DNA from: Caulobacter segnis ATCC 21756
Lineage (GTDB): Bacteria > Pseudomonadota > Alphaproteobacteria > Caulobacterales > Caulobacteraceae
DNA: 64,000 bases
Direction: 5' to 3'
Assembly: GCF_000092285.1 (NCBI RefSeq)
Contig: NC_014100.1
Location: 4,216,001 to 4,280,000, forward strand
Part shown: positions 63,224 to 64,000 of the stretch, piece after piece
Layout of the letters: every line of letters begins with the position of its first letter
Numbering within the stretch: the first letter of the stretch is position 1
Translations under genes and position numbers: made by a program
The notes under the pieces: generated by a model
Told to the model about the DNA's origin: nothing
Database searches by the model: none
The model's input: the letters and a program-made list of their open reading frames with translations, nothing else

Positions 63224-63250
63224 TTTACGCGGCCACGCTTCCTCGCTATT
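63224..63250 (+). promoter_or_regulatory. Housekeeping-type promoter before the asd leader
   Basis: TTTACGC at 63224-63230 and GCTATT at 63245-63250 sit 14 bases apart, close to the Caulobacter vegetative consensus TTGACGS-N10-14-GCTANAWC. A start about seven bases downstream would fall within a few bases of the leader ATG at 63261, making the leader leaderless or nearly so. Confidence 0.55.
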
Positions 63251-63260
63251 GACCCCGCCG

Positions 63261-63341
63261 ATGCAAGTCCGCGCGACCAAAATTACCACCCCGAAAACGA
63301 CCCGCCTCGGCGGGGCGTGGTCGGGCGTGCGCGCGTACTAG
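63261..63341 (+). CDS. Threonine-rich leader peptide of asd (putative)
   Basis: A 26-codon open frame with the sequence RATKITTPKTTRLGG in its first half. Five of residues 6-14 are Thr, an unlikely density, with one Ile and two Lys. It lies between the CPBP protease gene and asd and needs almost no untranslated leader if the promoter above is right. It has the layout of a threonine attenuation peptide, which would fit asd because aspartate semialdehyde feeds threonine synthesis. Confidence 0.6.
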   Translation: MQVRATKITTPKTTRLGGAWSGVRAY

Positions 63342-63378
63342 CGAGCATCCCGCAACCAGCCCCGCCGATGCGCGGGGC
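63301..63378 (+). promoter_or_regulatory. Putative transcription attenuator upstream of asd
   Basis: Three pairings compete. CCCGC (63301-63305) with GCGGG (63310-63314) is a pause-type hairpin right after the last Thr codons. GGCGGGGC (63309-63316) with GCCCCGCC (63359-63366) is the antiterminator. GCCCCGC (63359-63365) with GCGGGGC (63372-63378) is the terminator, followed by GGTTCTC, a weak T-tail. Ribosomes stalled at the Thr codons would cover the first arm and free the antiterminator. Confidence 0.55.
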
Positions 63379-63439
63379 GGTTCTCATCACCAGAGACCTC
63401 TAGCTCCCCGCGCTCCGCACCTTCAGGAGACGCAAGACC

Positions 63440-64000
63440 GTGAGCTTCAAGTTTTCCCGTTCCCATCCGCCCCACGTCGGCGTCGTCGGCGCCACGGGCC
63501 TCGTCGGCGGCATGATGCGCGAGCTGCTGGCGCAGCGGGATTTCCCGCTAGCCTCCCTGCGCCTGTTCGCCTCGGCCCGCTCGGCCGGGACCAAGATCGA
63601 GTTCCAGGGCCAGGAGATTGTGGTCGAGGACGCCGCGACCGCCGACTTCGCCGGGCTCGACATCGTGTTCTTCTCGGCCGGCGGCTCGACCTCGCGCGAG
63701 CTGGCCCCCAAGGCCGCCGCGGCCGGCGCCGTGGTGATCGACAACAGTTCGGCCTGGCGCTCGGACCCGGACGTCCCGCTGGTGGTGGCCGAGGTCAATC
63801 CGCACGCGCTGGCGAGCATCCCCAAGGGCGTCGTCGCCAACCCCAACTGCACCACCATGGCCGCCATGCCGGTGCTGAAGCCCCTGCATGACAAGGCGGG
63901 GCTGAAGCGCCTGACCGTCAGCACCTACCAGGCCGCCTCGGGCGGCGGCATGGAGGGCATCGAGGTCTTGTCCGAGCAGCTGCGCGCCGGCGCGACCGGG
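63440..64000 (+). CDS. asd: Aspartate-semialdehyde dehydrogenase, N-terminal part
   Basis: Asd reduces aspartyl phosphate to aspartate semialdehyde, the branch point to lysine/diaminopimelate, threonine and methionine. The visible 187 residues have GVVGATGLVGGMM (nucleotide-binding, about 13-26), DNSSAWR, and NPNCTTMA with the catalytic Cys137. GTG start at 63440 with AGGAG ten bases upstream. The gene runs off the window. Its upstream leader suggests attenuation control. Confidence 0.93.
   Translation, partial: MSFKFSRSHPPHVGVVGATGLVGGMMRELLAQRDFPLASLRLFASARSAGTKIEFQGQEIVVEDAATADFAGLDIVFFSAGGSTSRELAPKAAAAGAVVIDNSSAWRSDPDVPLVVAEVNPHALASIPKGVVANPNCTTMAAMPVLKPLHDKAGLKRLTVSTYQAASGGGMEGIEVLSEQLRAGATG

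Follow-up and report, generated by a model that had tools for sequence, protein, structure and literature searches.

How might the expression of asd, whose product supplies the branch-point precursor of lysine, methionine, threonine and isoleucine, be tied to the supply of these amino acids in Caulobacter segnis? In the window, by which we mean the whole 64,000-nucleotide stretch of DNA analysed here, a 222-base gap separates the end of the upstream open reading frame (63217) from the GTG start codon of asd (63440). A preliminary description of the sequence, which gave the same gap, had proposed that it holds a threonine attenuator with a leaderless leader peptide. We followed up this proposal, and the features of the locus are collected in Table 1.

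The part of the asd product inside the window (187 amino acids scored) matches the NCBIfam family NF011456 at 277 bits against a cut-off of 223, and the full protein has 347 amino acids (locus L001, 1501-2544). The next likely gene on the same strand starts about 280 bases beyond asd (L001); we take it to be a ribonucleotide reductase gene, a name read from the sequence with no search behind it. The genome itself (G000, one contig of 4,655,622 bases) carries another asd at 241504-242016, with about 50% identity to the first, and the covariance model R1 described below has no match before that gene. Among the best 80 listed relatives of the Asd that follows the leader, almost every one from outside Alphaproteobacteria belongs to the actinobacteria, Streptomyces among them, at about 63-71% identity, a pattern that suggests gene transfer of this Asd.

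Table 1. Features of the asd leader region in window coordinates
Feature	Position	Strand	Remark
Intergenic stretch before asd	63218-63439	+	between upstream open reading frame and asd
Putative promoter	63224-63252	+	-35 TTTACG 63224-63229, 17-nt spacer, -10 TATTGA 63247-63252, in GCTATTGA
Predicted transcription start	63258-63261	+	leaderless mRNA expected, 5' UTR 0-3 nt; from RpoD motif spacing
Leader peptide frame MQVRATKITTPKTTRLGGAWSGVRAY	63261-63341	+	TAG 63339-63341 included; kept in relatives
Control codons 6-14 (Thr Lys Ile Thr Thr Pro Lys Thr Thr)	63276-63302	+	Thr/Lys/Ile/Met enrichment in 32 leaders
Segment 1	63301-63305	+	5' arm of hairpin 1:2; alignment A3
Segment 2	63310-63330	+	core at 63310-63316, perhaps continuing to about 63330; partner 1 or 3
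Segment 3	63345-63365	+	core 63359-63365 plus possible 5' extension; partner 2 or 4
Segment 4	63370-63378	+	forms the attenuating hairpin with 3 or the release helix with 5
Segment 5	63406-63416	+	63406-63413 with 4; 63410-63416 with 6
asd Shine-Dalgarno and segment 6	63425-63433	+	AGGAG 63425-63429; segment 6 63426-63433
asd, aspartate-semialdehyde dehydrogenase	63440-64000	+	GTG start; continues past the window end

Leader peptide composition

The leader frame has 26 codons and, as previously described, five Thr among residues 6-14; it is an upstream open reading frame in which codons for the pathway's end products abound. Background usage in the 47 long open reading frames of the window is 5.1% Thr, 3.1% Lys, 4.2% Ile and 2.0% Met. 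Residues were counted by position in all 32 window-type leaders collected, 29 of which are distinct over their first 15 residues. At positions 6, 7, 8, 9, 10, 12, 13 and 14, one of Thr, Lys, Ile or Met was found in 32, 30, 22, 28, 29, 31, 26 and 27 of the 32 leaders, respectively (69-100%), and the fractions among the 29 distinct leaders were similar. The same four residues occurred in just 7, 2 and 1 leaders at positions 11, 15 and 16, and made up 6.5% of the 310 residues after residue 16. Among the control residues Thr prevails, making up 29% of residues 2-16. The four residues interchange at positions 6, 7 and 9, the last of these holding Ile in 18 leaders, Thr in six and Met in four, and Lys is found at position 12 in 27/32 leaders and at position 7 in 19/32. 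Because the control positions hold Thr, Lys, Ile or Met, the name "threonine attenuator" is too narrow: ribosome-mediated attenuation of asd is supported, and it is the restriction to Thr that falls. What the leader is predicted to sense is the aspartate family and not Thr alone: Thr, Lys and Ile, and in relatives also Met. Neither the Lys and Ile codons (Met in relatives) nor segments 5 and 6 had figured in the preliminary description.

Codon choice in the leaders is also skewed, with AAA for Lys in 47/60 cases and ATT for Ile in 36/47, compared to 7.4% and 5.2% in the open reading frames of the window. These leader figures come from a first residue count on 27 of the 32 leaders, which had been chosen by their motif at positions 12-14 and for which the count is circular there. 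The preference may be a mark of control codons, or merely of an unstructured 5' end.

Conserved segments of the leader RNA

All three competing GC-rich pairings of the preliminary description are present, namely 1:2 (63301-63305/63310-63314), the core of 2:3 (63311-63316/63359-63364) and 3:4 (63359-63365/63372-63378). Segment 5 moreover has complements on both sides: upstream, segment 4 (GCGCGGGG, 63370-63377) matches CCCCGCGC at 63406-63413, and downstream, the Shine-Dalgarno region (63426-63433) matches 63410-63416; the CCCC at 63406-63409 has no partner in the model apart from segment 4. RNA 63261-63442 folds with -80 kcal/mol, compared to -65.4 +/- 4.2 kcal/mol for shuffles (z = -3.45), and hairpin 3:4 is absent from the single-sequence folding of the whole leader. 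On A2, the first trimmed alignment, RNAalifold picks 2:3 and 4:5 unaided; as a guide to the full switch RNAalifold alone was rejected, as it yields the on-state helices only. Segment 5 was misaligned in A2, and A3, a MAFFT alignment of 28 rows from which R1 was built, took its place. The near-duplicates L010, L017 and L018 were left out of alignment A1 and, additionally, L004, L005, L008 and L019 out of A3; L034 and L035 were left out as lying, judged by length, on the same contigs as L023 and L014.

On A3, 98.5% of the on-state cells and 96.6% of the off-state cells pair, and six of the seven pairs of 3:4 are formed in every row having both letters. Four pairs of the off-state helices changed on both sides, with at most two in the slid controls. 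The on-state helices gave three such pairs, a value with which the control slid by -2 ties, and their further pair types on A3 were not above shuffles (197/500 reach the value). In A5, 42 rows that were fitted to the model and hence to the structure, changes on both sides were seen in 14/19 pairs, including all seven of 5:6, with at most five in slid controls. The rows are kin, so paired-change and row counts overstate independence. Read within these limits (kinship, the tied slid control and the fitted A5), the leader holds mutually exclusive helices with paired changes, and the comparison of Thr codons, stems and compensatory changes that had been proposed as a check found them conserved in relatives, which favours attenuation.

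Single rows were then scored, a helix passing if at most 10 of 200 dinucleotide shuffles were as good. Helix 4:5 passed in 25/31 window-type, 3/13 other-asd, 2/4 thrS and 2/4 other rows ("other" being L137, L139, L143 and L144, with one reverse-strand L022 match excluded). Based on 25/31 against 3/13, this helix is therefore chiefly a feature of the window-type clade. In L039 and L042 it is kept with different letters (0/200 shuffles as good). Helix 5:6 passed in 10/31 window-type, 4/13 other-asd, 4/4 thrS and 1/4 other rows. An extended 2:3 helix, averaging -17.3 kcal/mol in window-type rows versus -12.9 kcal/mol in shuffles, was set aside, with at most 15/300 shuffles as good in only 10/31 rows and 51/300 for the window row itself.

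Predicted switching

Folding was predicted with the ribosome represented by the position of its edge, and we take edges 63305-63312 to correspond to a stall on codons 12-14 (63294-63302), given the size of the ribosome footprint. A ribosome stalled there would mask segment 1, and for these edges the folds of the window RNA predict the on state, with 2:3 at 0.84-1.00 and 4:5 at 0.74-0.94. Pairing 5:6 drops to 0.04-0.21 at edges 63309-63312 and remains at 0.49-0.55 at edges 63305-63308. From edge 63315 onwards, both 3:4 and 5:6 are predicted at 0.99-1.00, and 5:6 is closed in the naked RNA and with edges 63300-63304. The idea that a stall on the control codons blocks segment 1 thereby finds a suitable place in codons 12-14; codons 6-10 lie too far upstream, and for a stall there, which would not cover segment 1, the off state is predicted.

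The prediction was extended to 28 rows, the window included. In the stalled state, both 2:3 and 4:5 exceeded 0.5 in 26/28 rows (exceptions L033 and L042). With the ribosome at the stop codon, 3:4 exceeded 0.5 in 26/28 rows (exceptions L013 and L036) and the Shine-Dalgarno sequence was at most 0.21 unpaired in 27/28; the direct readout of 5:6, which was above 0.5 at the stop in 20/28 rows, misreads rows with a one-base shift. When the 3' end was kept short, the unpaired fraction of the window Shine-Dalgarno rose from 0.00 at the stop to 0.54 when stalled, and at least 0.2 was unpaired in 12/28 stalled rows. With the 3' end at 63460, only 0.24-0.33 of the window Shine-Dalgarno was unpaired whichever the state, with no rise on stalling.

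Promoter position and leader start

The promoter, described earlier as consensus-like, has a weak likeness to the E. coli consensus, and a scan of 63150-63500 with that consensus found no match. Its position is what stands: TT[GT]AC lies within -41 to -30 of the leader start codon in 69/80 leaders, mostly at -38 to -36, while base-shuffled controls gave a mean of 0.7 and a maximum of 4/80. A Shine-Dalgarno-like word precedes the leader start codon in 7/80 leaders. The start codons had been hand-picked among in-frame options, partly by position, before the promoter count, and this choice somewhat favours a leaderless outcome. In Caulobacter, 93% of RpoD motifs (1,542/1,666) begin 34-37 bp upstream of the transcription start (PMC4287350). 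Because the motif before asd starts at 63224, this spacing would place transcription initiation at 63258-63261, and the leader AUG probably forms the RNA 5' end or follows it by no more than about 3 nt, with a promoter that sets the start of transcription at the start codon and no Shine-Dalgarno sequence ahead of it. The preliminary description had called such a leaderless attenuator unusual. The start at or near the 5' end is retained as a prediction; the epithet is not, given the precedent of trpL in Sinorhizobium meliloti and a geometry shared by 69/80 leaders. In Caulobacter crescentus, 375 leaderless mRNAs have been reported (PMC4117421).

Distribution of the element

Some asd match was found in 148/149 genomes of the family, which we take to be Caulobacteraceae, and a close one (at least 68% identity) in 41. 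R1 matched directly before 40 of these 41 close orthologues; the remaining asd starts at a contig end, and the same genome has the leader at the end of another contig. Leaders from 22 of the 41 genomes had been used in R1, and 18 of the other 19 match. Upstream of the second asd copies in the 41 genomes, R1 (E <= 0.01) found 0/39 among the copies listed. In the own genome, the asd leader scored 142 bits and the next best site 20. Across the class, R1 (E <= 0.01) matched in 43/385 genomes and the broader model R2 (E <= 0.001) in 41/385; across the phylum, 11/200 genomes matched, eight within the class (own included) and three, weakly, outside it. The genes after the matches include both asd types, thrS, hisS, dapA and one aspartate kinase/homoserine dehydrogenase, as well as some that fit no amino-acid pathway. 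In L221-L223, from family genomes, the leader precedes the other asd type, which suggests that RNA element and asd lineage have been re-paired.

Composition was compared over residues 2-16 of 80 hand-picked leaders. At least two Thr were present in 32/32 window-type asd, 26/27 other asd and 13/13 thrS leaders; at least two Lys in 25/32, 22/27 and 1/13, respectively, and in 3/4 dapA leaders; and at least two His in 4/4 hisS leaders. Both models cover the codons from about the tenth on, which biases matches towards similar codons, and despite this bias Thr-, His- and Lys-type leaders precede the matching genes. Left out of the count were L137, L139, L143 and L144; L182, L183, L195, L198, L199, L201, L204, L206, L209-L211 and L215, with unclear or single-example downstream genes; and L191, before dapA, where the script found no leader. 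Leader inspection in the 80 asd relatives was kept for L033-L044 alone, and among these no leader was seen by eye at L040, L041, L043 and L044.

Several of these loci deserve separate mention. A His-rich leader, MTRTPHHHGHHHHPTSPRGIGRVRSL, precedes hisS of the own genome (L114 1501-1645, minus strand; G000:C1:4310099-4310243). The Rfam family CC3513, a Caulobacter sRNA, matches the strand opposite this leader (L114 1561-1732, plus strand, 133 bits), and given this overlap the strand or identity of the CC3513 sRNA may deserve a look. Leaders with Lys and Arg precede dapA-type genes at L193, L202, L203 and L205, a candidate lysine attenuator; the gene at L193 scores just below the dapA cut-off. 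Thr-rich leaders precede thrS at 13 loci (L130, L131, L135, L138, L184, L185, L187-L190, L192, L194 and L196), the gene at L130 being identified by TIGR00418 and the other 12 by BLAST to L130 or by eye. Similar leaders and hairpins with few Thr are found at L143 and L144 (short open reading frames, no family matched) and at L183, L195 and L198 (unclear genes), and related leaders are followed by genes resembling those of acetyltransferases (L137, L139) or a methyltransferase (L210).

Tail of hairpin 3:4

The 3:4 stem of the window is followed by GGUUCUCA, with three U in 8 nt, two of which pair with AA 63354-63355 in the fold of 63350-63460. The T-tail is thus as weak as first noted: the GC hairpin of an intrinsic terminator is present in the window and the U-tract is absent. 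The 8-nt tail holds one to three U in 28/31 window-type rows, and the U-rich ones (four to seven U) are L039, L042 and L142. At most three U were counted in 9/13 other-asd rows, and at least four in the other 4/13 and in 3/4 thrS rows; the tail of the own-genome hisS leader is, by eye, likewise poor. Termination may be the output in the U-tailed part of the leader family. Since poor tails are widespread in the family, the case for translation at asd rests on 4:5 and 5:6, conserved alternative helices at the Shine-Dalgarno sequence (5:6 alone in 10/31 rows), and not on a lost tail.

Mechanism and alternatives

We put the probability that the asd leader is a ribosome-mediated attenuator responding to aspartate-family amino acids at roughly 0.85, as judged from comparative sequence analysis. 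In the proposed mechanism, RNA polymerase would start at or beside the leader AUG, a ribosome would initiate on the leaderless RNA, and charged Thr, Lys and Ile tRNAs (in relatives also Met) would set asd expression. When these are charged, the ribosome would reach the stop codon at 63339 and cover segment 2, so that 3:4 forms, segment 5 pairs with the Shine-Dalgarno sequence (5:6) and asd is off. When charging is low, the ribosome would stall on Lys12-Thr13-Thr14 and cover segment 1; 2:3 would then form, and the freed segment 4 would capture segment 5 and release the asd Shine-Dalgarno. The full proposal, from charged-tRNA sensing through stall and six-segment cascade to Shine-Dalgarno release, is in our view likely. 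Its direct support is the conservation of leader and helices, the paired changes, the promoter position and a leader composition that tracks the downstream gene; ribosome stalling, leaderless initiation, the direction of the switch and an output by translation rather than termination are what we infer.

The output is where the proposal meets its strongest competitor, classical transcription attenuation, in which 3:4 would be an intrinsic terminator that works without a U-tract in a GC-rich genome and 5:6 would be incidental. Hairpin 3:4 is indeed strong, GC-rich and nearly invariant in its pairing, U-rich tails occur at the same place in relatives such as L134, L141 and L039, and poor tails, as in the own hisS leader and most other-asd rows, may be the family's way of terminating. 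However, the tail is poor in the window and in nearly all window-type rows, whereas U-tract terminator candidates do occur in the window, at 35736-35764 (then TTCTTTTT) and 58291-58271 (then TTTTCTTTCT); terminator-like sites in three 20-kb stretches numbered 6, 14 and 20 against shuffled means of 6.5, 9.3 and 8.6, an excess in just two of the three (window minus 60001-63149 and 63501-64000). A U-run also follows 10/12 terminal hairpins of Caulobacter Hfq-bound sRNAs (PMC11005374), and a plain intrinsic terminator leaves the conserved 4:5 and 5:6 unexplained. We regard this alternative as rather unlikely. The word "terminator" in the preliminary description is accordingly doubtful for a hairpin that has no U-tract and is accompanied by a conserved hairpin on the asd Shine-Dalgarno, and, as the U-tract is missing, output through translation, a likely reading, is no less probable than termination at the window asd. 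That Shine-Dalgarno occlusion is the main output in the window clade is, after tails and folds were looked at again, an evenly balanced call. The absence of a U-tract would also fit coupling to Rho, in which Rho terminates untranslated leader RNA and stalled ribosomes or refolding alter its access; such coupling needs no conserved 4:5/5:6 alternation with the Shine-Dalgarno, and we consider it very improbable.

Two further alternatives concern the signal. If the leader sensed Thr only and its Lys and Ile were incidental, the predominance of Thr among the control residues would be expected, but not the frequent Lys at positions 12 and 7 or the exchange of Thr, Lys, Ile and Met at positions 6, 7 and 9; and the thrS leaders, which are expected to sense Thr alone, have at least two Lys in just 1/13 cases. 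A Thr-only attenuator is improbable on these counts. Finally, the locus might combine a conserved mRNA structure with a small peptide and involve no switching, for example for stability or for a function of the peptide itself, and peTrpL is an example of a leader peptide with activity in trans (PMC7298713). Yet leader composition follows the amino acid of the downstream gene, for which a sensor of charging is the simplest account, and this is the most remote of the alternatives. Returning to the attenuator responding to the aspartate family, we tentatively extend it, at somewhat short of even odds, to one leaderless RNA design re-coded in Alphaproteobacteria for Thr (thrS), His (hisS), Lys (dapA) and the aspartate family (asd), of which the asd version in the window clade would be a six-segment translational switch without U-tract, with two strand exchanges leading to the asd Shine-Dalgarno.

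A sensor of several products of the asd pathway at once would be a neat route to concerted control, placed on one of two asd copies. The leader makes the role of leaderless translation in regulation testable, and bears on U-tract-free attenuation in GC-rich Alphaproteobacteria and on how one attenuator scaffold gets re-coded for other amino acids. It is also an RNA element without a match in two Rfam searches: the scan of the asd leader (E up to 1) found no family, its sole match lying off the leader at 62645-62710, and that of the leaders of 20 sampled loci (E up to 0.1) found no match on their own strand, its single match being CC3513 opposite the hisS leader.

Comparison with known systems

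Ribosome-mediated attenuation and leaderless attenuation are already known kinds of control. In the partial texts covered by the literature search, we recognised no account of the asd leader element in Caulobacter and found no match for the multi-amino-acid asd version, the shared promoter geometry or the six-segment Shine-Dalgarno cascade. The gammaproteobacterial thr operon attenuator (thrL) has Thr and Ile control codons and alternating hairpins, and the asd leader resembles it in having both ahead of an aspartate-pathway gene. It differs from thrL in the gene controlled, in the addition of Lys and Met, in being leaderless, in lacking a U-tract and in the extra hairpin on the Shine-Dalgarno. 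The mycobacterial polycysteine leaderless short open reading frames that Canestrari and colleagues reportedly described in 2020 are attenuating like the asd leader, but they respond to cysteine and belong to another phylum.

With regard to output, T-boxes bind tRNA and use no leader peptide. The translational ileS T-boxes and LEU elements of actinobacteria nevertheless share with the asd leader control by amino acids through sequestration of the Shine-Dalgarno; in the LEU element, it is Leu codons that pair with this sequence, as a pseudoknot or a hairpin (PMC1262725). In Sinorhizobium, the translated small open reading frame SEP5 has been proposed to encode a leader peptide in the 5' UTR of a gene named "aspartate dehydrogenase" (PMC10117765), and with six Thr and three Lys codons it resembles the asd leader; the available passages report conservation in Sinorhizobium only, describe neither an RNA structure nor a mechanism, and draw no connection to Caulobacter. 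The leaderless attenuator trpL of S. meliloti (PMC7298713, PMC10117765) differs in its Trp codons, its target trpE(G) and its output by transcription termination, with no Shine-Dalgarno stage seen in the passages available, and it is like the asd leader in being an alphaproteobacterial attenuator whose RNA begins at the leader AUG.
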